The position numbers and the translations under genes were made by a program. Below, piece by piece: positions 2,493 to 62,332 of a stretch of 64,000 nucleotides of DNA (position 1 is its first letter; every line of letters begins with the position of its first letter). The notes under the pieces were generated by a model, which searched no databases, had not been told where the DNA came from, and saw nothing but the letters and a program-made list of their open reading frames with translations. The stretch is from a virus: positions 1 through 64,000 of IMG/VR virus record IMGVR_UViG_3300028874_000010, one strand, 5' to 3'.

Positions 2493-3050
2493 TTATTTTT
2501 CTAAATAATCTTTAAGATATACTCTTTCAAATCTGTATCCGGGTTCTACCGCAACCATGAACAATGTTTTTGTATATTCGCCAGTCTGAAATTTCAATCT
2601 TATTTCACCTAGAGGTCCATCTTCCTGAGATAATGAAAATGGATTGCCTGCCATATCAGCATTCAATCTATCGGTTTGCTTCTTAAGAATCTTATGAGCC
2701 TCATCCATTAATTGCTTCTTGCAATCATTCTTAATGCTCTTTGAATAAGCACCACCAATCTTAATAGATGGATACACCGAACTCTTATTCCCAAATCTTC
2801 CAACATTCGTTTCTTTATCAGTAAATTCGACGTTATCAAAATATTTTGAATCAGAAAGATCATCAAAATCAGAAATATCTGCTGGAGAAAATGTATTGAC
2901 TATCTTAACCCAAGATTTTTCTAACTCGGATCGAATTTTCTTTGCAACGTCAACATGCTCATTTTGCTCGTAATCAAAGAAACGGAGAGTATGCTTAGCT
3001 CTTGCTGCTTCCGTTAAAACATAAGACTTAAAGGTTGGTTTCATATTCAT
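2493..3050 (-). CDS. Hypothetical protein with putative capsid-targeting N-terminus
   Basis: The 185-residue protein has no recognised domain. Its N-terminus (MKPTFKSYVLTEAAR, counting from the second Met) resembles the short capsid-targeting sequence of T4 internal head proteins (MKTYQEFIAE type), which the prohead protease cuts after an L/I-x-E motif. Here LTE is followed by Ala-Ala. Two other proteins in the window (47951-48892 and 48892-49329) start in a similar way. Packaging into the head is an inference. Either Met1 or Met3 could be the start, as no strong ribosome binding site is seen. Confidence 0.55.
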   Translation of the reverse strand: MNMKPTFKSYVLTEAARAKHTLRFFDYEQNEHVDVAKKIRSELEKSWVKIVNTFSPADISDFDDLSDSKYFDNVEFTDKETNVGRFGNKSSVYPSIKIGGAYSKSIKNDCKKQLMDEAHKILKKQTDRLNADMAGNPFSLSQEDGPLGEIRLKFQTGEYTKTLFMVAVEPGYRFERVYLKDYLEK

Positions 3051-3161: not shown

Positions 3162-3863
3162 ATGAAAGCTCTTCCATACGTTTACAAATTAGTACATAAA
3201 GAAACAGGCGAATTCTACATAGGTTTTAGATGTGCAAACAAAGTACCAGCAAATGAGGATTTGGGAATTAAATATTTTACTTCTTCAAAATTGGTTAAGA
3301 AAACATTTGAAAATTTTGAATGTTTTGTTTTAGGAGAATTTGAAGATAAAGATGCCGCATATACTTTTGAACAAAATCTTATCAAGGAGTGTTTTTCTAA
3401 TCCATTAATCCTAAACAAACATTGGCAAGATACTAAAACATATTCTATGCTAGGATTTAAGAGGCCAGATCTTGGAAAATTAAATTCTGAAATAAAAAGA
3501 AAACCAAAAGAATATAGAAATTATGATTGTGCTCAATGTGCTACGCCTTTGTCAAAATTAGAATTTATTCATCATAAGCCAAAGGAGCATTATTATTGCA
3601 ATGCTAAATGCCGAAATGAATTTAATAGAGGCCCATCAAAAAAAGGAATTAAGCTTCCGCATTTGTGGGGTAGGGCAGCTTGGAATAAAGGTTTGACTAA
3701 TCCAACTGCAGCAGAAAACGCAAGGAGAGGCGCAGAAAAACAACGCGAATTGGTAACCGGAAGAAAGAGACATTATATTTCAGAGACCGAATGGACCTGG
3801 AAATGTCAAGACAAAGATGGATGGTACATACGCCAAAACGGGGAACAAGTCCCCGTTTTGTGA
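3162..3863 (+). CDS. GIY-YIG homing endonuclease
   Basis: The N-terminal GIY-YIG nuclease domain reads YVYKLVHKETGEFYIGFR (the GIY position is YVY, the YIG motif is intact), followed by the usual Glu in the FEQNLI helix. A CxxC...CxxxC zinc-ribbon-like segment is centred near residue 130. A DNA-binding tail contains WNKGLT, typical of NUMOD3 modules. No interrupted gene flanks it, so it is a free-standing homing endonuclease. Its 3' end overlaps the terminator of the permuted tmRNA gene, which is transcribed towards it, suggesting insertion beside a conserved RNA gene. Expression is probably late and hairpin-controlled. Confidence 0.85.
   Translation: MKALPYVYKLVHKETGEFYIGFRCANKVPANEDLGIKYFTSSKLVKKTFENFECFVLGEFEDKDAAYTFEQNLIKECFSNPLILNKHWQDTKTYSMLGFKRPDLGKLNSEIKRKPKEYRNYDCAQCATPLSKLEFIHHKPKEHYYCNAKCRNEFNRGPSKKGIKLPHLWGRAAWNKGLTNPTAAENARRGAEKQRELVTGRKRHYISETEWTWKCQDKDGWYIRQNGEQVPVL
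3835..3859. terminator. Bidirectional terminator-like hairpin between homing endonuclease and tmRNA
   Basis: The arms AAAACGGGG and CCCCGTTTT form a 9-bp GC-rich stem with a 7-base loop. The T-runs at each side are short (four bases). It overlaps the last codons of the GIY-YIG gene and lies just past the 3' end of the tmRNA coding piece, so it can serve both convergent transcripts. Confidence 0.6.
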
Positions 3864-4299
3864 TCATTCTGTTTCTTGGCTGATCAGCCTCATGGGGATC
3901 ATGCCGCTAGGCGAGTCTCACCAAAGTAAGCATCATTTGCATTTGCTTTGTTTGCTTCATTTACGTCGATCGCCTGACGTGTTGTCTGCATCAATACTAA
4001 TCACCCAATCAAAACCTTGGCGAGCCCATCAGAAGAACCCAAACTCATATCGGTCGTTAGCTTGGTTTATTGCAATACCCGATCCATCTTAGCAAGACTT
4101 ACGTTATTGCACCAGTGAATATTCTAGAAATACTCACCTTAGGTTCTTCTGGTGGACTCGATGGGACTCGAACCCATGTCTTGAGCACCTTTCTATCAGC
4201 TTCATACAACAATAATAATGTTGACAGATTCTAATCGCGTATCTGTCTTGATTCACAAAGATATCGCGATTTAAGCTCTTTGTGAATCGCACTGCCAAC
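3862..4299 (-). ncRNA. ssrA: Circularly permuted (two-piece) tmRNA precursor
   Basis: The minus-strand transcript carries the acceptor piece first. A T-arm at 4161-4177 (stem ATGGG/CCCAT, loop TTCGAGT) is followed by CGAGTCC, discriminator A and CCA ending at 4150. After a spacer of about 122 bases (4028-4149) comes the coding piece, starting GGGCTCG at 4027. These two heptamers pair fully and place a G3-U70 wobble, the alanine-tRNA identity element, in the acceptor stem. The stem is prolonged by GAAGAACC/GGTTCTTC in the spacer, as expected for a precursor that is cut into two RNAs. The coding piece holds a resume GCA and an open tag ending Leu-Ala-Ala and TGA. tmRNA rescues stalled ribosomes and marks the nascent chain for proteolysis. 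The 5' and 3' ends are approximate. Permuted tmRNA is known from alphaproteobacteria, some betaproteobacteria and cyanobacteria. Confidence 0.88.
3899..3955 (-). CDS. tmRNA proteolysis-tag reading frame
   Basis: Starting from a GCA codon at 3955 the frame reads A-N-K-A-N-A-N-D-A-Y-F-G-E-T-R-L-A-A and stops at TGA (3899-3901). An AN(D)-type start and an LAA end are hallmarks of tmRNA tags. The exact resume codon is uncertain, because GCA occurs at tag positions 1, 4 and 6. The LAA terminus would normally be read by ClpXP-, ClpAP- or FtsH-type proteases. This frame has no independent start codon and is translated only by trans-translation. Confidence 0.8.
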   Translation of the reverse strand, partial: ANKANANDAYFGETRLAA

Positions 4300-4305
4300 A
4301 AATGA

Positions 4306-4311
4306 ATTATA
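4306..4311 (-). promoter_or_regulatory. Putative -10 box of the tmRNA gene
   Basis: The minus strand reads GTGTATAATTC. Start of transcription would be near 4299, so the RNA would open with a strong stem (arms GATTCACAAAG and CTTTGTGAATC, 11 bp, about 4249-4287) ahead of the acceptor piece. No good -35 is seen. Confidence 0.4.
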
Positions 4312-4334
4312 CACAGCCCTGAGGAAATGTATAC

Positions 4335-4415: not shown

Positions 4416-5099
4416 TTATTTATCGTACAAAGGCATTTTTACATCAATTAATTCTAGATCGATGTGTTCAATCTTTAGTTCTGCTATTTTATCATGGTTG
4501 ACTATCCCATCAAAGAATAGTACGCCTCTATAAAAATCGACTGGTGCTGCACCATGGCGTATTTCTATTTCATTTAAGGCGAAAGCAGAATTCCCAACAT
4601 CATACTTATAATTTTGTGTATTTTGGTGGATTAATGGCAACCCATTATTTCCTGGTATTTCGGTTAGCGGTAACTTAAAACCAAGATATTTATTCTGTTT
4701 GTGGATCTCTGGAAACTCATCACCATAATCGACATGTAAAGGAAGAGTTGTACCAGGAATCTGGAGTAAAATAAACATCCTAGTGAATTTATCAAAAACT
4801 TTCAATAATGGTTCAGCAATAGGTTTGATGATTTCTACTATCGGATCATCTTTCCATGTCCAATTAAAATTTGGATCCATCCGTTTAGTGAATGTTCGAT
4901 TTGTTTTTTTATCTACTATTTCACGGAGATGTTTAGTTAGCCAAAAATGCCCAAACTCTTCACCGTTATAGCCCCATCCAACAGGTTTAATTTTGCCAGT
5001 GTTAAGCTGATCTTTCATATGTTGAATAATCAGCTTTTGTTGTTCATTAGTAATGGTGATGTTTGGAATAGAAAATCCAAATTCTTTTGATAATTGCAT
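4416..5099 (-). CDS. Putative 2-oxoglutarate/Fe(II)-dependent oxygenase
   Basis: The 227-residue protein shows a double-stranded beta-helix metal signature: His122-x-Asp124 in LPLHVDYGD, then His182 in IRHGAAP and Arg191 in FYRGVLFF. These match the HxD...H...R pattern of 2OG-Fe(II) dioxygenases of the aspartyl/prolyl hydroxylase type. Substrate unknown; protein side chains or modified bases are both possible in phages. Another protein with the same pattern lies at 36991-37635, and a looser one at 32847-33356. Confidence 0.55.
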   Translation of the reverse strand: MQLSKEFGFSIPNITITNEQQKLIIQHMKDQLNTGKIKPVGWGYNGEEFGHFWLTKHLREIVDKKTNRTFTKRMDPNFNWTWKDDPIVEIIKPIAEPLLKVFDKFTRMFILLQIPGTTLPLHVDYGDEFPEIHKQNKYLGFKLPLTEIPGNNGLPLIHQNTQNYKYDVGNSAFALNEIEIRHGAAPVDFYRGVLFFDGIVNHDKIAELKIEHIDLELIDVKMPLYDK

Positions 5100-5100
5100 A

Positions 5101-5325
5101 TTACATATTCGCTAGTGCCTTGATTGCTTCTTCTAGTTTTGCAAATCGTTTACCACCTTTATAAACAACATTAAGCCCAGTATCAAGGTATGCTTTCATT
5201 GCTTGACCTTTTATTTCTATTTCAGTACCAGATTCAGCGCCGAGAATAGAGACTATCATATTAATGATTTGGCCTTCGGTAAATCCGTATTTTTTAAAAA
5301 CTGCTAGACATTCTTCTCGGGTCAT
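5101..5325 (-). CDS. Hypothetical 74-residue protein
   Basis: Starts at an ATGA overlap with the stop of the 164-residue gene upstream, so the two are translationally coupled. It is a small mixed alpha/beta protein with no recognised motif. Confidence 0.5.
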   Translation of the reverse strand: MTREECLAVFKKYGFTEGQIINMIVSILGAESGTEIEIKGQAMKAYLDTGLNVVYKGGKRFAKLEEAIKALANM

Positions 5326-38811: not shown

Positions 38812-40692
38812 CTAGTCGAAGATGAAATCTTCCCATTGTTTAAGGAATGGATATGATTGTTTTGAAGTGCCAAGCTTGATATACTCAACAGACAGTTCAA
38901 TGAATTCCTTCTGCGTTGCAGAATTTGTTTTGATAAGCATGTTTACAACATGACCAAAATATGTAGAATTATCACTGAGCAGTTTTTTAGCTCTTGCTAA
39001 TTCACGAGTTATGATATTGGTGATAGCAATATCCGATTCTTGGATTGATGTCACCCAATTAATAGGGAGTCCAGCCGATCCGTCAATTAAAACCGGAACA
39101 TTATTTTCAAATCCAAATCGTCTAACATAATTGCTGGATAGATTTGTTGCTTGGACAATATCCGATTGTGCCCCACTTGTTATATTTTCTTTGCCATAGA
39201 TTAATTCTTCCGCAGCTCGACCAGCTAACATAATACAAATAGAATCAAGGCATTGTAATTTAGTTTCTGCTTCATCTGAAGGCGCATCAAGAATATACCC
39301 ACCTTTAAATTGAGATGTATTAACCTTTACTTCGAAAGGTGCCGATTTAGTCAATAGAGAATATATCACAGCATGTCCACTTTCATGAACAGCAACTAGA
39401 GCTTTGAAATCAGCTGAAGTTTTTTTCTTGTTCTCATTCATTTCCAATTCGACTGGAAATGATGCCGAAGAATTAAAACCATTAACTACTATATGTTTTT
39501 CATCATCATGCATGAAAAGAGATAAACTCTTTTCATCATTCTCTATAGCCCAAAATGTTGCGTTAACCAGCAGATTACTGAAAATTTTGTGGATAGATGA
39601 AAATACTGGCCGAGTTCCTTGTGTCGGGAAGACCGCATTGTTATAAATCTCATCTAATATTTTTTGATCTAATGTAAAGGATATATCCGACACTTTAGAC
39701 ATTTCATCAGTGTACTTAAGACATGTTGCTTTGATCAGCTTTTGATACGACGATTTACTCATAGACGGGTAGATAATATGATTATTGCCCATGCGAGAAA
39801 TCTGTTCTGGACGAAACCGTTCTTCTAGATTTGCCTTGATTTCATTGGATGTAATATTTTTGGTAACTTCATGATAATAATCAGCATCAGTATCAGAATC
39901 ATCTGTACTTGTCGCCCCAATAAAAGCAGTATCCAGATTACCAGAAATAAAGATAACTAATTTAGAATAATCAATTTCCCAAGTAGTTCGTGAGTCACAA
40001 AATTCATGGAACACTTTTGCTATTTTTGAGGTAGACCAAGACAGAATTTCACTAATTGGTTCCTGTAGGCGCAGAAGTTTCTTTAGATTTTTTGCTTCAT
40101 ACGGATATAGCGATGTTTTTTTCTTTGGTTTGCTATCCTCATCTTCATCAGACTCATTAAGAAATTTGCCATCATCATAATCTTGCTGTGCAATCAGCAT
40201 TTCAATTTCATCAAAAACTGATGAATCAGATGAAAACTTACCATCACTTAAAAGAGTCCAGACATCTTGGTATCGTTCAACCGCAACATCTGCATCATTA
40301 TCATCAACAGTCCGGTAACGTTGGATTTCATCTAACAACAAAATACCTGGTGTGCCTTCATCAATAGATGATTGCAAAAGAACAGATGAAATCGTAGTAG
40401 GTCCATATGCTTTAATAGACCCACCATCCATTTGTATTTCTACAAACTTGGTATTAAAATCCAGTAGTGATACGATACGCCGGACTAATTGGGTTTTGCC
40501 AACACCAGTCATACCCCAAAGATTAATGATCACTGGGCGAGTAATAATTTCTGGGAAAATATACCAAGCTGAAAGAGAGTCAACAATCTTTTCAATGATT
40601 TCATCCAAACCAAAAAATTCTGTTTTCAGCTGAATTTTAACTCGGTCTAAAACTTCACGCTTTGCGGTGATTAAACTTTTATCTAACGGCAT
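38812..40692 (-). CDS. Clp-type AAA+ ATPase fused to an FtsH-type (M41) zinc peptidase
   Basis: A 626-residue protein with no membrane segment. The AAA+ module has GMTGVGKT (Walker A), ILLLDEIQ (Walker B), and ERFRPEQISRM plus GTRPVF, which are features of the ClpB-D2/ClpX clade rather than FtsH. An acidic insert (DESDEDEDSKPKKK) interrupts it. The peptidase part has HESGHAV (HExxH), AGRAAEELIYG, and GAQSDIVQATNL, whose Asp is the third zinc ligand in FtsH. A Clp-style motor fused to an M41 chamber is unusual. It could degrade tmRNA-tagged or host regulatory proteins. Confidence 0.85.
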   Translation of the reverse strand: MPLDKSLITAKREVLDRVKIQLKTEFFGLDEIIEKIVDSLSAWYIFPEIITRPVIINLWGMTGVGKTQLVRRIVSLLDFNTKFVEIQMDGGSIKAYGPTTISSVLLQSSIDEGTPGILLLDEIQRYRTVDDNDADVAVERYQDVWTLLSDGKFSSDSSVFDEIEMLIAQQDYDDGKFLNESDEDEDSKPKKKTSLYPYEAKNLKKLLRLQEPISEILSWSTSKIAKVFHEFCDSRTTWEIDYSKLVIFISGNLDTAFIGATSTDDSDTDADYYHEVTKNITSNEIKANLEERFRPEQISRMGNNHIIYPSMSKSSYQKLIKATCLKYTDEMSKVSDISFTLDQKILDEIYNNAVFPTQGTRPVFSSIHKIFSNLLVNATFWAIENDEKSLSLFMHDDEKHIVVNGFNSSASFPVELEMNENKKKTSADFKALVAVHESGHAVIYSLLTKSAPFEVKVNTSQFKGGYILDAPSDEAETKLQCLDSICIMLAGRAAEELIYGKENITSGAQSDIVQATNLSSNYVRRFGFENNVPVLIDGSAGLPINWVTSIQESDIAITNIITRELARAKKLLSDNSTYFGHVVNMLIKTNSATQKEFIELSVEYIKLGTSKQSYPFLKQWEDFIFD

Positions 40693-40730
40693 CAAATATC
40701 TCGGTTGAGGCGTTTCATTAGTCCAGCCAT
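40692..40730 (-). CDS. 12-codon leader frame coupled to the AAA-M41 gene
   Basis: ATG 40730 has an excellent ribosome binding site (AAGGAAAACTAAAATG) and encodes MAGLMKRLNRDI. Its TGA overlaps the ATG of the protease gene (TGATG), and that gene itself lacks a good ribosome binding site. This is a likely translational-coupling leader rather than a functional peptide. Confidence 0.4.
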   Translation of the reverse strand: MAGLMKRLNRDI

Positions 40731-52088: not shown

Positions 52089-53612
52089 TTAGTTATTTTT
52101 GGTCCCGTTGGCAATGTATTCAGTATCCATTTCACCAATGATTGTACTGGGTGACTCGATGACTACATCAAATTCCCAGAGATTAGCAAGATGACCGATA
52201 GTCTCTTTAACCGAGTCATCATCAAGTGGCCTATTCAAATACGGAGTATGAACGATGGTTAGAGTTCGGTCACCAAGAATATCTACATTATCAACTTGAA
52301 GATCCGGAACCCAGTTTGCTCGGTTATAACTTTCAGAAAGTGAATTCCGGACTTTGATATAACCATCATCATTATGGATTGCAGAAATCTCGACAAAATT
52401 CTCTTCTTGAATATCCGTAATAGAAAAGAATTTAAAATCACGAATTACTTTTGGAGACAAAAACTGTGCTATGAATGAATCATCTTTATAATTCTCCATT
52501 GCATCTTTAACAACAGGAAGCCATGGTGTCCCAGCAAACTTTGGAAACCAATGACGGTCTTCTTCTGTAGGGTTTTCACAGATTCGTTTGATATCCATGA
52601 AGATAGCAAACCCGAGTGCATACGGATTAATTCCGCTGAACCAGCGCTTATCAAATTCTGGTTGATACACCACATTGGTATGTGATGCTAAAAATTCTAT
52701 ATATGACCCAGATGAAACAAGACCTTTTTCATATAGCCGTGTCATAATGAAGTAATGCGTGAATGTTGCAAATCCTTCATTTAAGACTTTGGTTGATCCT
52801 TGTGGATAAAAGTACTGAGAGACTTTACGAACAATGCGGATGATTTCACGTTTCCAAGATGGTAAATCTGGTGCATATTTTTCAATGAAGTACAAGATAT
52901 TATCTTCCCGATCTGCTGGGAATTTTTCATCTTTGGCGTTTTCTAACGTGTTATTTTTCGGGACTGTTTTATCCCAGATAGGATTGAAATCAATACGGGC
53001 TTGTTCAAGCCGTTCCATCGCCCGCTTTTCTTCATCACTTGCACTGATAGATGGAGGGCGCTTATATCGATCAATCCCATAATTCATTAATGCATGGCAA
53101 CTATCTAAAAAGGCTTCAACTTCAGCAACCCCATATTTTTCTTCACACTTTGCAATATAGTTCTTGGCAAACAACAAATAATCAATAATTGCTGAAGCAT
53201 CAGTAAATTGTTTGAACATGAAATTGTTCTTGAACACTGCTGAATGTCCAGCCGATGCGTGAGCCATGACCAAACATTGCATAGTCATGTTGTTTTCTTC
53301 CATGAGATATGCGATACATGGATCTGAATTAATCACGATTTCATACGCTAGACCCATTTGGCCATGTTGGTATGATTTATAATTCTTCAGGAATTCTTTT
53401 CCAAACGACCAATGCTTATACATGATTGGAAGACCAGTTGATGCATAGGCATCAATCATTTGCTCGGCTGAAATGACTTCCATTTGAGGCCGATAATAAT
53501 CAAGCTGAAGTTCTTCCTTAGCGATCTTTTCGATTTCAATCCAAGTCTTTTCAAGAAGATCAAAAGACCAATCTTGACCTGGCCCAAACAGCGGTTTATT
53601 TTTCTTAGCCAT
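52089..53612 (-). CDS. SpoVR family protein
   Basis: A 507-residue protein matching SpoVR/YcgB in length and character: YRPQMEVISAEQMIDAYASTGLPIMYKHWSFGK, a conserved HASAGHSAVFKNN segment, PQGSTKVLNEGFATFTHYF and SGINPYALGFAIF. The biochemical role is unknown. In bacteria it is encoded with PrkA and YeaH and is linked to starvation and sporulation. All three genes are here in the same order. The start at ATG 53612 has GGAAAG. Confidence 0.92.
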   Translation of the reverse strand: MAKKNKPLFGPGQDWSFDLLEKTWIEIEKIAKEELQLDYYRPQMEVISAEQMIDAYASTGLPIMYKHWSFGKEFLKNYKSYQHGQMGLAYEIVINSDPCIAYLMEENNMTMQCLVMAHASAGHSAVFKNNFMFKQFTDASAIIDYLLFAKNYIAKCEEKYGVAEVEAFLDSCHALMNYGIDRYKRPPSISASDEEKRAMERLEQARIDFNPIWDKTVPKNNTLENAKDEKFPADREDNILYFIEKYAPDLPSWKREIIRIVRKVSQYFYPQGSTKVLNEGFATFTHYFIMTRLYEKGLVSSGSYIEFLASHTNVVYQPEFDKRWFSGINPYALGFAIFMDIKRICENPTEEDRHWFPKFAGTPWLPVVKDAMENYKDDSFIAQFLSPKVIRDFKFFSITDIQEENFVEISAIHNDDGYIKVRNSLSESYNRANWVPDLQVDNVDILGDRTLTIVHTPYLNRPLDDDSVKETIGHLANLWEFDVVIESPSTIIGEMDTEYIANGTKNN

Positions 53613-53624
53613 TATTCTTTCCAA

Positions 53625-53861
53625 TTAACGTGCAAATTTTATTGCACTATCTACTTCATCACCAAAGGCCACTTTATCACAATCCGGATAAAACCACGCG
53701 ATACACCCAGTAGGTAGTTCGATTTTGAATTCATCTATTTTATCAGCTATGAATTCATAACGAGCTAGAATTATTTCTAACTCTTCCTGAGTATATTTTG
53801 TGCTAAGCCTGTCATTTAGTTTTCTTTTCAAACAATTTTTTGAACACTGGATAGATCTCAG
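53625..53861 (-). CDS. Hypothetical small protein between SpoVR and YeaH genes
   Basis: The C-terminal about 60 residues (KYTQEELEIILARYEFIADKIDEFKIELPTG...) look protein-like. The start is uncertain because the only Met codons lie inside the YeaH-like gene; ATG 53861 is used here. It ends 12 bases before the SpoVR start. Confidence 0.45.
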   Translation of the reverse strand: MRSIQCSKNCLKRKLNDRLSTKYTQEELEIILARYEFIADKIDEFKIELPTGCIAWFYPDCDKVAFGDEVDSAIKFAR

Positions 53862-55119
53862 CATCTTCATAGACATTAGCCATTTGAAAATTCTCAAAAT
53901 CTTTCTTTACATTTTCATAGGTCGTCCAAATATCACTTTGATATCCTGGTGTTGTTCCAACTTGGATGTACCCAAAATATTGGACATAAGGCATAATATC
54001 ATCGCAGAGCAATTCATAGCACGTGCCATTGTCGGTGTCCCAATTATCACCGTCCGAACATTGGCAAATATACACGTTTGTTGAATTATCAGAATAATCA
54101 TCCTTGATAATCTTAGATGCCAAATCCAATGCAGACGAAACCATTGTCCCGCCACTATCTCGAGTATTAAAGAATGTATCTTCATCAACTTCAAAAGCTT
54201 CAGTGGTATGGTAAATAAACCTAAGTGAAACCTTTTCATACTTACGAACTAAAAACATATACAACAAAGCAAAGAATTTTCTAGACAATGTCTTTTCATG
54301 AGGGCCCATAGATCCAGAATTGTCCATAATGCAGATCATCACAGCATTTATTGCTGGGTGTTCAACTGCAACAGTTGAATGATACCTAAGATCCAATGGA
54401 TCAAGAAATGGAACATTTTCCATCTTCACTTTATACCCAGTAATCTTCTTCTGAAGTTCTACTTTACGATTCTGTAATTCTTGATCTTCTTCGGCAGATC
54501 TAACAACAGCTTGAATCAATATAGCTTCAATTTGATTCAATTCATCTTGCGCGGCCTTCAATCGTTTCTTATAAGGGGCACGCTGTGAGATCCTACGTGA
54601 ATGTGAATTTCGGAGTGATTTACTCCGATCCAATTTTGCTGGCGTCCCATTTGTAGTGTGTCCAGCATTATGATGTTTAATTTCAATAACTTCTTTTAGA
54701 CCTTCCTTAACAAGATCTGGAAGCTCCAAATCTTCAAAGAAATATTCCAGAAATTCATCACGTGTAATTTCTACTACAAAGTCATCTTCACCAGACCCAT
54801 CAGGCGAACCCTTCTTGCCAAAGCCACCTCCAGTCTTTGGCGGCTTTCTGAATTTATCACCGGCATTAAAATCTTGGTTACCAGGTCTAACGGCTTCATA
54901 TGTCCCGCCTTCACCATGCCTAAAATTTGGTTCGCTGATACTTTTTTGTGGGATATGGATTACTCCACCATCAGAATCAATATCTTCAATTTTACGAGAA
55001 TTGATAATATCCGGCAAAGATTTTTTAACAGATTCACGAATTCGTTTTAGAAACTTTTGACGGTTATCTAATGACTTTCCCTTACCGTTTGGGCGCCGAT
55101 CTACAATAGAGAAGCTCAT
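53812..55119 (-). CDS. YeaH/YhbH family protein (DUF444, VWA-like)
   Basis: A 435-residue protein. It has the N-terminal DRRPNGKGKSLDNRQKFLKR, a central charged region with RISQRAPYKKRLK, and the VWA-like domain with MDNSGSMG as MIDAS and SGGTMVSSAL. It matches bacterial YeaH, the partner of kinase PrkA (YeaG) in stress and nitrogen-starvation responses. A phage copy in a trio with PrkA and SpoVR is unusual. Confidence 0.92.
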   Translation of the reverse strand: MSFSIVDRRPNGKGKSLDNRQKFLKRIRESVKKSLPDIINSRKIEDIDSDGGVIHIPQKSISEPNFRHGEGGTYEAVRPGNQDFNAGDKFRKPPKTGGGFGKKGSPDGSGEDDFVVEITRDEFLEYFFEDLELPDLVKEGLKEVIEIKHHNAGHTTNGTPAKLDRSKSLRNSHSRRISQRAPYKKRLKAAQDELNQIEAILIQAVVRSAEEDQELQNRKVELQKKITGYKVKMENVPFLDPLDLRYHSTVAVEHPAINAVMICIMDNSGSMGPHEKTLSRKFFALLYMFLVRKYEKVSLRFIYHTTEAFEVDEDTFFNTRDSGGTMVSSALDLASKIIKDDYSDNSTNVYICQCSDGDNWDTDNGTCYELLCDDIMPYVQYFGYIQVGTTPGYQSDIWTTYENVKKDFENFQMANVYEDAEIYPVFKKLFEKKTK

Positions 55120-55120
55120 A

Positions 55121-55345
55121 TTATTCTTTTCCTGAAGTAGGAGTTATTTTAATTCTACAAGCAAATAACTGATTGGTGACGTTAGCTGATGGCCCATTAT
55201 TTTCCAAGAGCACAGCTTGTTCACATGTCTGAGCATGAGCTATTGCATCATTTGCTTTGACATTGTAACTCCAAATGAAGAAACCAAGCCCAAGAATAAC
55301 ACTTGCAACCGCTATCCAAAATGCGCACCAAACATTATCTCTCAT
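55121..55345 (-). CDS. Small membrane-anchored protein
   Basis: A 74-residue protein with one N-terminal transmembrane helix (about residues 6-28) and a short outer domain with two Cys. It sits between the PrkA and YeaH genes, one base before the latter. Confidence 0.5.
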   Translation of the reverse strand: MRDNVWCAFWIAVASVILGLGFFIWSYNVKANDAIAHAQTCEQAVLLENNGPSANVTNQLFACRIKITPTSGKE

Positions 55346-55452
55346 AATACTTTCTCATTATCAAATTATATGCGATCTCTAGAAATTAATCTAGAGGCCT
55401 CTTCTCTCTACTTATATTAAATTTTAGGAAAATCTTTATAACATATATCTAA

Positions 55453-55483
55453 GAAGGTTACTCCGTAATATGGAGTAACCTTC
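55453..55483 (-). terminator. Hairpin after the PrkA gene
   Basis: A 12-bp perfect stem GAAGGTTACTCC/GGAGTAACCTTC with a 7-base loop, 20 bases downstream of the PrkA stop. It lacks a clear T-run, so it could attenuate rather than end transcription. Confidence 0.5.
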
Positions 55484-55503
55484 CTCAAATTCTATTGCGA
55501 GAA

Positions 55504-57444
55504 TTACTGATTTTTACGGATACGTAGCCACCATTCAACAAGTAGACGGGTTTGGCGTTGCGTATAACCCTTATCGGCCATCCGCTTGACAAATGATTCA
55601 TGAGCTTCTTGATCCTTCTTTGATCCTTTAGAAGTGAAGCTGATCACTGGTAGAATTTCTTCTGTCCCAGCGAACATTTTCTTTTCAATAACTTGGCGCA
55701 TCTTTTCAAAGTCGTTCCAGGCAGGCATATTGCCTTTATGGCCGGCTTTATGGCGAAGCACAAAGTTAACAACTTCATTCCGGAAATCTTTCGGGTTCAC
55801 AATACCTGCAGGCTTTTCAACTTTTTCTAGCTCAGCATTCAATGTCGAGCGATCAAATTGTTCGCCAGTATCAGCATCACGGAAATCTTCATCGCGGATC
55901 CAGAAATCTGCATATTGGACATATCGATCAAAAATGGTTTGGCCATAATCGCTGTATGAATCCATAAAGGCAATCCGGATTTCCTTTTCAACGAACTCAG
56001 CATACTTGTCGCCAAGTTGGTGCTTAATCAAATTGATCAGGTGTTCTTCACGATCTGATGGAAATTGTTCCTTGACGATTTCATTTTCCAAGACATACAT
56101 CAAGTGAACCGGGTTAGCACCGATTTCTTCAGTATCAAAGTTAAATACCTTTGATAGGATCTTGAATGCAAATCGGGTCGAGATTCCGTCCATGCCTTCA
56201 TTGACACCAGCAACATCCTTATATTCTTGGAGCGGCTTAGCACGTGGATCAACATCTTTGATATTTTCGCCATCATAGACGCGCATCTTGGAATATAGAT
56301 TCGAATTGGCTGGTTCAACCAACCGGGACATGACTGCAAACTTGGCAAGCATTTCAAGAGTTTCTGGTGCAAATGGAGACTTGGCCAATTTACTTTTCGC
56401 CAACATCTTTTTATAGATGCCGACTTCTTCACTAGCACGTAGGCAATATGGAATCTTGACAATGTTAACACGATCCAAGAACGCTTCATTGTTCTTGTTG
56501 TTACGGAAGGTCTTCCATTCACTTTCATTGGAGTGAGCAAGAACAATGCCATCGAAAGGAATACTGGAAATAGAATCTGTTCCGTTGTAATTCTTTTCTT
56601 GAGTTGCTGTCAAGAGTGGATGAAGCATCTTGATTGGGGCTTTGAACATTTCGACAAAGTCCAAGATCCCTTGATTAGCATTACATAGACCACCGGAGAA
56701 GCTATATGAATACGGGTTATCTGCAGCGTATTCTTCTAACATCCGGATATCAGTTTTACCAACCAGTGTCGTAATGTCTTGGTTGTTTTCATCACCAGGT
56801 TCTACTTTAGCAATCGCAATATTATTCAGAATGGAAGGATATTGCTTGATTACAGTCAATGACGAATGATCACCTTTCAGGTCTTCAAGCTTTTGCGCCA
56901 GCCAAGGAGACATTTTGACTCGAAATGCACTTGCCGGAATATCATATTCTTCTTCAAGGGCAGCACTGTGAAGATCGACATCAAAGATGGAAAGAGGATT
57001 ATCATGAATTGGAGAACCTTTGATGAAATAGATTGGTTCCTTTTCCATCAGTTCTTTCAACTTTTCGGCGATCGACGATTTACCACCACCGACGGGTCCG
57101 AGTAGATAAAGAATTTGTTTACTTTCTTCAAGGCCTTGAGCACTATGCCGGAAGTAAGAAACAATTGATTCGATTGCATCTTCCATGCCAAAGAAATCTT
57201 TGAAGGCTGGATAGATTTTGATGATGCGATTTGAAAAAATGCGGCTGAGGCGAGCATCAGTTTTTGTATCAACGAATTCCGGTTCGCCGATTGCCTTGAG
57301 CATACGCTCGGCTGGCGAAGCATAAACCGAAGGATCACTTTTGCAAAGATTCAAATATTCTTGAATCGACATTTCTTCCTGGGTGTTACGCTTAGCGTAA
57401 TCATTGGAAAATCTCGCCAGTACGCCCGAGTGTGCTTTGGACAT
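55504..57444 (-). CDS. PrkA-type serine protein kinase/AAA+ ATPase
   Basis: 646 residues, full length for PrkA (YeaG). Start ATG 57444 with GGAG. It has an AAA+ module with LLGPVGGGKSS (Walker A), FDGIVLAHSNESEW as the family motif after Walker B, and VKIPYCLRASEE; a C-terminal kinase-like part follows. PrkA proteins are stress-linked kinases or AAA+ regulators that work with YeaH and SpoVR. The three-gene set may push infected cells into a stress-tolerant or translation-adjusted state. Confidence 0.93.
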   Translation of the reverse strand: MSKAHSGVLARFSNDYAKRNTQEEMSIQEYLNLCKSDPSVYASPAERMLKAIGEPEFVDTKTDARLSRIFSNRIIKIYPAFKDFFGMEDAIESIVSYFRHSAQGLEESKQILYLLGPVGGGKSSIAEKLKELMEKEPIYFIKGSPIHDNPLSIFDVDLHSAALEEEYDIPASAFRVKMSPWLAQKLEDLKGDHSSLTVIKQYPSILNNIAIAKVEPGDENNQDITTLVGKTDIRMLEEYAADNPYSYSFSGGLCNANQGILDFVEMFKAPIKMLHPLLTATQEKNYNGTDSISSIPFDGIVLAHSNESEWKTFRNNKNNEAFLDRVNIVKIPYCLRASEEVGIYKKMLAKSKLAKSPFAPETLEMLAKFAVMSRLVEPANSNLYSKMRVYDGENIKDVDPRAKPLQEYKDVAGVNEGMDGISTRFAFKILSKVFNFDTEEIGANPVHLMYVLENEIVKEQFPSDREEHLINLIKHQLGDKYAEFVEKEIRIAFMDSYSDYGQTIFDRYVQYADFWIRDEDFRDADTGEQFDRSTLNAELEKVEKPAGIVNPKDFRNEVVNFVLRHKAGHKGNMPAWNDFEKMRQVIEKKMFAGTEEILPVISFTSKGSKKDQEAHESFVKRMADKGYTQRQTRLLVEWWLRIRKNQ

Positions 57445-57591
57445 TAACAACTCCTATTATTTTCAAAGTTTTGATTGAGAGAAACTACTGGTGAATCTAC
57501 TACTATTATTTTGTGGTTCAGCATAAATACGATTTTTACACACAAGTTTTTTATTGTAAATCAAATTAGACTTGTTATTATGCTTTGCAGC

Positions 57592-59393: not shown

Positions 59394-59428
59394 AAAAAAA
59401 AGGAGACTCATTGCGAGTCTCCTTTTTT
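59394..59428. terminator. Bidirectional terminator
   Basis: AAAAAAAGGAGACTC/GAGTCTCCTTTTTT with a 5-base loop separates the convergent HNH and CCA-enzyme genes and can serve both. Confidence 0.85.
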
Positions 59429-60527
59429 ATAGTGCATTAATTCTGGCATTAAAGATTAAATCTTTAATTTTTGTTTTATCTTCTGTTGATAACGCAATCT
59501 CGGCAACATCGACATTCAAAATCTTATCAATATCACTATAAATTAATTCATGCGGCATCAGCCCAACTCCTTTAACATGTTCGCCGATATATCGACAAGC
59601 AGTTAGAACAACTTTGAATCTTTCAGGTCTCCTGAATAAATCAACTCTATTAAACAATTGGACCCGTTCTCTCTTACTTAATATTTGATATTTAGCAAGA
59701 GCCCCGCATTCGTTATTTACCAATGTAGAGACTTGTTCACAATCAACTGAGATAGTCCAACGTTTGTAATCTTCTTTATTTTTAAATCCATTTGCTATGA
59801 TAGCAAATCGAACTTCAAGCGGAGCATTATTCTGAGCTGCTTCATTTAATGAGTGTAGCCCACTGTCACGAAGCCACTGACCTGTTGTACGAGTTCCGCC
59901 CCCAAACCATTCATTTAAATGATGATTAGCGCCAACATACGACAGTATTACAAACATCGCTGAAGGTCTTGCTTCCATCAGACCTTTCTTAAATTCCATC
60001 CAAACTCGTTCCGGGGTTAATGACTTGAATTCGCCAGAATCTACTATTTGACGCATAAGTTCTATAGTATCTTCGTGGATAGTGAACTCGGTATATCTTG
60101 CAGCAAATCTGGCGATTCTGAGAACCCGAACCGGATCTTCAGCAAAGGCTTCTGATGTGTGTCGAAGAATTTTATTCTTTAAATCTTCTTGGCCACCATA
60201 CGGGTCAATGACGTTATTGTTTTCATCCATCGCCATCGAGTTGATTGTTAAGTCGCGCCGAAAAAGATCTTGCGCTAATGTAACAGTCGGATCAAAGTCA
60301 ACTTTAAACCCGTTGTACCCAGGAGAAACCTTACGTTCATTTCTGGCTAATGCATATTCTTCACCAGTGATTGGATGGAGGAAGACCGGAAAGTCTGCAC
60401 CAACTTGCTGGAAATTAAGTTCCAACATGGCTTCAGTTGTGGCGCCAGTTACCACATAATCTCGATCTCTGGATTCTATTCCGAGCAGCCGATCCCTAAC
60501 TGCGCCACCAACTAAATATGTTTTCAT
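59427..60527 (-). CDS. cca: CCA-adding tRNA nucleotidyltransferase
   Basis: The 366-residue class II enzyme closely follows E. coli Cca over the first 200 residues: LVGGAVRD (5-12), Asp21/Asp23 in [51 protein letters not shown] and LTPERVW. The C-terminal HD phosphohydrolase domain of E. coli Cca is absent. It adds or repairs 3'-CCA on tRNA, useful with the phage tRNA and tmRNA and after host tRNA damage. Confidence 0.95.
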
Positions 60528-62237: not shown

Positions 62238-62332
62238 TGGAGGAAGAAACGGGATTCGAACCCGTGGACCTAGGGTTTGCCTAGATCTATAGCTTTCCAA
62301 GCTATCGCAATCGGCCGCTCTGCCACTCTTCC
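62238..62332 (-). tRNA. tRNA-Ser (anticodon GGA)
   Basis: Minus strand. Acceptor GGAAGAG pairs with TTCTTCC (one G-U). The anticodon loop TTGGAAA is closed by ATAGC/GCTAT and reads GGA (codons UCC/UCU). A long variable arm built on CTAGG/CCTAG marks a class II tRNA. The T-arm is ACGGG-TTCGAAT-CCCGT. CCA is encoded. The discriminator base is T, whereas bacterial tRNA-Ser usually has G. Confidence 0.93.

Follow-up and report, generated by a model that had tools for sequence, protein, structure and literature searches.

A two-piece tmRNA gene of the beta type in a large T4-like phage, a phage class of degradation tags, and probable exchange of tags between related phages

Circularly permuted tmRNA genes have been described mainly from alphaproteobacteria, betaproteobacteria and cyanobacteria (PMC11915505). 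When such a gene is carried by a phage, the question arises whether it serves ribosome recycling alone, or whether the phage imposes a choice of its own on the stalled proteins to be degraded and on the protease involved. Phage genes of this kind are already known: two-piece ssrA genes were reported for the Methylophilales phage Melnitz and other aquatic phages (Buchholz et al. 2022, PMC9004378), and the current tmRNA database holds 79 phage tmRNA sequences (PMC11915505). A preliminary description of the locus studied here had considered a permuted tmRNA in a phage unusual, a view already overtaken by the published count of 53 permuted forms among 133 distinct phage structures (PMC9004378). 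The single gene therefore adds to a known, little-studied set, and the comparison around it matters more. What is new is a phage tag class and, probably, modular tag exchange.

The DNA analyzed here (the window) is a stretch of 64,000 nucleotides belonging to a 112,368-base IMG/VR virus record classed as linear, which encodes a T4-like topoisomerase II, an RNA ligase, a tRNA nucleotidyltransferase, NAMPT and a thymidylate synthase. Judged from its sequence, the locus is very probably a functional two-piece tmRNA gene of the beta type, carried by a large T4-like phage and dependent on host SmpB. On the minus strand, the acceptor half is followed by the spacer and then by the coding half, with the following features:

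3899-4211, minus strand: circularly permuted tmRNA gene (RF04321, RF01850, ARAGORN)
4150..4211, minus strand: predicted acceptor piece, comprising the T-arm, the 3' acceptor strand and the encoded CCA (RF04321/RF01850 alignments, ARAGORN)
4161..4177, minus strand: T-arm ATGGG-TTCGAGT-CCCAT (covariance-model alignment)
4154..4160, minus strand: 3' acceptor strand CGAGTCC, partner of 4021-4027, with G3.U70 (sequence and homologues)
4153-4150, minus strand: A-CCA directly after the 3' acceptor strand (sequence)
4028..4149, minus strand: intervening spacer of 122 nt, presumably removed by processing (sequence)
4149-4142 and 4039-4032, minus strand: spacer-end helix GAAGAACC/GGTTCTTC, with the linker TGAT (fold, covariation in homologues)
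4021..4027, minus strand: 5' acceptor strand GGGCTCG, predicted 5' end of the coding piece (covariance-model alignment, sequence)
3862..4027, minus strand: coding piece (covariance model; 3' limit inferred from the downstream hairpin)
3980..3985, minus strand: ACAACA, which pairs with TGTTGT at 4211-4206 (covariance-model alignment)
4211-4206 and 3980-3985, minus strand: TGTTGT/ACAACA, second helix joining the two pieces
3902..3940, minus strand: tag template ANDAYFGETRLAA, 13 codons, resume codon GCA at 3940 (comparison within the class, AAAT)
3899..3901, minus strand: tag stop codon TGA (sequence, covariance-model alignment)

The RF04321 tmRNA_permuted model matched the locus with 108.1 bits (E 4e-20, Rfam cut-off 47) and the RF01850 beta_tmRNA model with 97.3 bits (Rfam cut-off 84), the latter being the only tmRNA model of its clan that was retained in comparison with the alpha and cyano models. 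Both curated cut-offs are thus passed, ARAGORN also called a permuted tmRNA (tmRNA*), and the phage-encoded permuted tmRNA of the preliminary description is borne out. The matching acceptor heptamers named there, GGGCTCG/CGAGTCC, form seven pairs, G3.U70 among them, and the T-arm (4177-4161) and the CCA (in the A-CCA at 4153-4150) are present. The precursor fold is more stable than those of dinucleotide shuffles (z = -6.6), and the D-loop reads TTTTGAT where TTTCGAC is usual.

Both halves were located in 131 permuted tmRNAs, which came from an acceptor-domain scan, a tag scan and isolates, and the sets used for covariation were deduplicated to 53 tag-class and 54 other sequences. The homologue search demanded a paired acceptor stem (G.U allowed), so that constant acceptor pairing partly reflects the search itself; neither the invariant G3.U70 nor the variety at other acceptor positions was imposed by it, and the spacer helix was not among its requirements. 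The G3.U70 pair was found in all 131 located homologues, across 21 different 5' acceptor strands, and acceptor positions 4-6 covary, with two to five pair types in the 53 tag-class and 54 other sequences. For the spacer helix, the longest run averages 9.4 bp in the tag class compared with 5.5 for shuffled partners (at most 6.2 in 200 shuffles), and 8.9 compared with 4.0 in the other permuted tmRNAs. Ten positions of this helix are paired in 35-44 of 44 tag-class sequences, compensatory changes included. The pairing of the acceptor halves recurs in homologues, the helix extending into the spacer, proposed earlier for this one locus, is real, and both covary across about 107 distinct homologues.

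The reading frame was another point of the preliminary description, which gave a tag of 18 codons ending in Leu-Ala-Ala. The ending stands; the tag most likely has 13 codons, ANDAYFGETRLAA. In 75 of 79 distinct relatives, AAAT occupies positions -4 to -1 before the homologous GCA, and the window gene has AAAT at the same positions before the 13-codon start, a frame that combines A at -4 with an LAA end and an in-frame stop. E. coli tmRNA takes its frame from the A at -4, A86 (PMC2481249). The 13-codon tag is preferred because of this conserved context and the role of A86, whereas the 18-codon alternative, an in-frame extension, would start with U at -4. The 19-codon tag called by ARAGORN is likewise an in-frame extension; its start does have A at -4, but the upstream stretch aligns with the conserved non-tag CGTAAAT-AAGCAAA of relatives, and both extensions were rejected.

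The predicted tag belongs to a phage class of 13-14 codons that we define here as ANDA(F/Y)(F/Y)G(E/D)xRLAA. Viral contigs were scanned with the pattern ANDA(F/Y)(F/Y)G(E/D), positions 9-13 being left free, and at least 120 stretches matched; all but one among the matches listed (about 120) read as short tmRNA tags, closed by an in-frame stop after a final Ala-Ala. A stricter pattern with R-L-A gave no matches when 84,980 species genomes of bacteria and archaea were scanned, in a run without a positive control. Because Arg-10 is encoded by CGC in 60 of 60 distinct tag-class cases and Leu-11 mostly by CTA, while the codons of the two final Ala vary, the R-L step of the tag is probably also constrained as RNA. 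Pairing of tag codons 7-8 with the bases that follow the stop has a class mean of 3.96 Watson-Crick pairs (3.32 in shuffles); in the window gene this helix, present in most relatives, is not formed (2 pairs). The class is rare in a body-motif search without tag bias, accounting for 3 of 113 distinct sequences; most of that set have a 10-codon ANDxxxALAA tag, and 15 of the 103 sequences with a readable tag exceed 20 codons. Very long tags (23-31 codons) were seen in the viral permuted tmRNAs L064, L357, L294, L323, L282, L287, L319, L330, L293 and L342; several of them share the motif FTGNTV (e.g., ANANTFDFSAMSFTGNTVRGAANESRFALAA), and most are preceded by an ordinary resume context.

The gene is conserved at the same place in a related phage, with another tag. 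In this relative (G017, locus L270), the closest shared genes around the tmRNA have 64-79% protein identity, and the permuted tmRNA sits between homologues of the window ORFs 2493-3050 and 5101-5325 (64-68% protein identity); its tag, ANDNSFRVAA, differs from that of the window. A tree was built with FastTree on the tag-free RNA body (134 nt, 115 sequences), a short alignment for which local support values are given, and in it the window gene clusters with G017 (0.87) and L051 (0.97). Members of the tag class are spread over this tree (27 changes versus 34.6 when labels are shuffled), 15 of its 31 small, well-supported clades combine them with other tags, and 95 pairs of sequences differ at no more than 2 of 55 body bases while one member is in the tag class and the other outside it. 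The clearest pair comes from syntenic phages, L156 (ANDAFYGEDRLAA) and L365 (ANDETFALAA). In the upstream stretch covered in both, thirteen 40-nt segments show 92-100% identity. Identity falls to 53% in the cassette, taken as the tag and its stop codon with 12 nt on either side, and returns to 100% and 95% in the two 40-nt segments that follow. The same contrast is found between L113 and both L130 and L123, less cleanly, as the body also differs near the tag. The exchanged piece takes in the post-stop strand able to pair with the tag end.

This cassette difference is most simply read as recombination. An assembly chimera may produce such differences in single contigs, but several contigs agree. 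We consider it probable, with moderate confidence, that RNA body and tag evolve as separate modules, and that recombination between otherwise near-identical genes moves cassettes of about 60 nt, made up of the tag, its stop and the adjoining strand, and lets phages switch tags. No report of modular tag exchange in phage tmRNA was found in the open-licence literature. If the genes are modular in this way, phages could switch among the host-like 10-codon ANDETFALAA, the phage-only 13-codon class and tags of up to 31 codons, and the tag would be under selection of its own, for example by host adaptors, proteases or defence. Exchangeable degradation tags, including a class absent from the bacterial genomes scanned, would make the phage's purpose testable.

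The immediate surroundings of the gene contain the following features:

3162..3863, plus strand: GIY-YIG-type homing endonuclease ORF, convergent, adjoining the tmRNA gene (phrog_314 E 1e-7, YVYKLVHKETGEFYIG motif)
3835..3859, minus strand: terminator-like hairpin AAAACGGGGA..TCCCCGTTTT (fold, -17.8 kcal/mol)
4216..4299, minus strand: 5' leader with two stem-loops, GATTCACAAAG/CTTTGTGAATC and GACAGAT/ATCTGTC (fold)
4306..4333, minus strand: sigma70-like promoter match TATACA-16-TATAAT (weak consensus match)

The gene had also been credited with its own promoter and terminator. A strong hairpin does lie just beyond 3862-4299; it is near-symmetric, falls within the 3' end of the convergent ORF and was not picked up by a terminator scan. 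The promoter did not hold up in the same way, being a match at 10 of 12 consensus positions in a region where 6 such sites were found and 3.2 expected. The two leader stem-loops, of 11 and 7 bp, have a fold z of -3.5. At its tmRNA locus, the relative G017 has no match to the GIY-YIG ORF or to the ORF at 4416-5099. ORFs similar to the GIY-YIG one adjoin the tmRNA or the tag in L133, L146, L191 and L231. A motif scan found GIY-YIG-like ORFs in 3 of 464 cases within 300 nt of a tmRNA and in 3 of 1928 more than 1500 nt away; a homing endonuclease as the driver of cassette exchange was not retained, as these numbers are too few.

Two phage proteases had been mentioned together with the tmRNA, and the M41 protease is confirmed. 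The ClpP-like ORF 1594-2328 matches Pfam CLP_protease and also head-maturation protease families, so that it may be a prohead protease. The FtsH-like protein encoded at 38812-40695 has the M41 peptidase domain (E 3e-24), whereas its AAA match is weak and the protein is far below the FtsH equivalog cut-off. This phage M41 protease is a candidate for degrading the tagged products.

The permuted form had further been taken to point to the host lineage. That conclusion does not follow, since the beta type also occurs in phages of gammaproteobacteria and of Synechococcus. Permuted tmRNAs above the Rfam cut-offs were found in complete phages of Stenotrophomonas (DLP_6, Marzo), Xanthomonas (XacN1, X1), Pseudomonas aeruginosa (UF_RH6, SM1), Acinetobacter (BUCT628) and Synechococcus elongatus (BUCT-ZZ01), and the seven compared with the beta model, DLP_6, Marzo, XacN1, UF_RH6, SM1, BUCT628 and BUCT-ZZ01, also pass its cut-off. 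Gammaproteobacterial hosts are described with one-piece tmRNA. The acceptor-domain scan of viral contigs placed the permuted share at more than half of the tmRNA-bearing loci, and permuted tmRNAs, numerous in viral contigs, occur in phages whose hosts' lineages are described with one-piece tmRNA. The exact acceptor-domain scan of bacterial genomes gave no match, and the whole-genome comparison no close isolate for the window phage, the best isolate relatives being Xanthomonas phage X1 (43% for the topoisomerase) and T4-like phages of Vibrio and Pseudomonas. The Pandoraea oxalativorans plasmid pPO70-1 (L250) carries a permuted tmRNA above both cut-offs, for which ARAGORN gave the odd tag GKNDAFYYEAA.

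We infer processing, charging, SmpB use, tagging and benefit as follows. One transcript would contain the acceptor half, the spacer and the coding half, and the spacer helix would draw the two halves together. Host tRNA-processing enzymes would excise the spacer, and the two resulting RNAs would stay joined through the acceptor stem and the TGTTGT/ACAACA helix. Host alanyl-tRNA synthetase would charge the tmRNA via G3.U70, and host SmpB and EF-Tu would bring it to stalled ribosomes. The ribosome would resume at GCA (3940), append ANDAYFGETRLAA to the stalled protein and terminate, and the tagged proteins (...GETRLAA) would be degraded by host ClpXP-type proteases. The phage would most likely gain ribosome recycling during the destruction of host mRNA, and its own tag would decide which proteases and adaptors see the products.

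A search for SmpB covered 12 large viral records (the window contig and 11 tag-class carriers) and 7 complete isolate phages that carry a permuted tmRNA, and found none, against 10 of 14 positive-control genomes that scored; for the window phage the result is provisional, since the 112-kb contig represents part of a larger genome. As the search returned no SmpB for this phage or for the 18 related carriers, use of the host protein is most likely. The adaptor SspB was found in none of the tmRNA carriers tested; phage pf16 alone has one, and pf16 is reported to be without tmRNA (PMC5587285).

That the phage brings no SmpB would also suit an RNA acting as a competitor or inhibitor, which would occupy host SmpB or ribosomes and dampen host trans-translation, and such a role has been proposed for the tag-less tmRNA-like RNA of mycobacteriophage DS6A (PMC4131195, PMC11915505). 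We regard it as unlikely here: a decoy needs neither tag frame nor resume signal, stop or LAA end, yet all of these are intact and conserved over many phages. The gene could instead be a recent capture from a host, kept by chance and now decaying, as might be suggested by a 122-nt spacer that is among the longest seen, the lost post-stop helix, the deviating D-loop and the adjoining homing endonuclease. However, a phage with flanking proteins of only 64-68% identity has a tmRNA between the same neighbours, all tRNA-like features are kept, and the tag occurs in no bacterial genome by the strict pattern, which makes a chance capture very improbable.

A further alternative is a copy left by integration, a piece of a host tmRNA gene in a temperate phage. 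Although bacterial tmRNA genes are frequent integration sites (PMC11915505), this origin is scarcely credible for a complete gene in the interior of a large T4-like genome that encodes topoisomerase II and RNA ligase, and no integrase was found among the part of the proteins searched. A functional phage tmRNA working with host SmpB is the reading we retain.

This gene shares with the permuted tmRNAs of RF04321/RF01850 the gene order, G3.U70, the T-arm, the CCA, the second connecting helix, the resume motif and an LAA-ended tag, and differs from them in being phage-encoded and in its 13-codon tag of the phage class. A permuted tmRNA of a Cupriavidus plasmid has a 10-codon tag, ANDEKFALAA, unlike the 13 codons of the window. 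Melnitz resembles the window in having a permuted tmRNA in a T4-like myophage; however, its ssrA groups with alphaproteobacterial tmRNA and was reported with a glutamine riboswitch (PMC9004378), whereas the window gene is of the beta type and no riboswitch above Rfam cut-offs was found within the window. As in the window, permuted tmRNA occurs in complete isolates of Menderavirus (Stenotrophomonas phages Marzo and IME-SM1), and likewise in Samunavirus (Pseudomonas phages SM1 and UF_RH6) and in Xanthomonas phages XacN1 and X1. These tmRNAs are of the beta type in most, and their tags (ANDDSYTVRIAA, ANDTSFDVRLAA, ANANTFDYALAA, ANDADYSVARYA) differ from that of the window. Bxz1-type mycobacteriophage tmRNAs are one-piece. 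The tmRNA of Bxz1 and its relatives is phage-encoded like the window gene (PMC4131195), and the DS6A RNA is without a tag, whereas the window gene is permuted and has one.

Other genes of the window touch on RNA maintenance and stress. A tRNA nucleotidyltransferase (CCA-adding enzyme) is encoded at 59427-60527 and a tRNA-Ser(GGA) at 62238-62332, and the CCA-adding enzyme could be relevant to the 3' repair of tRNA and tmRNA. Genes for a PrkA kinase, a DUF444 protein and SpoVR stand in a row at 52089-57450, in the manner of a yeaG-yeaH-ycgB type stress operon; PrkA is also present in uncultured phages of 634-642 kb, with about 58-60% identity, and in a more distant form in Thermus phages.
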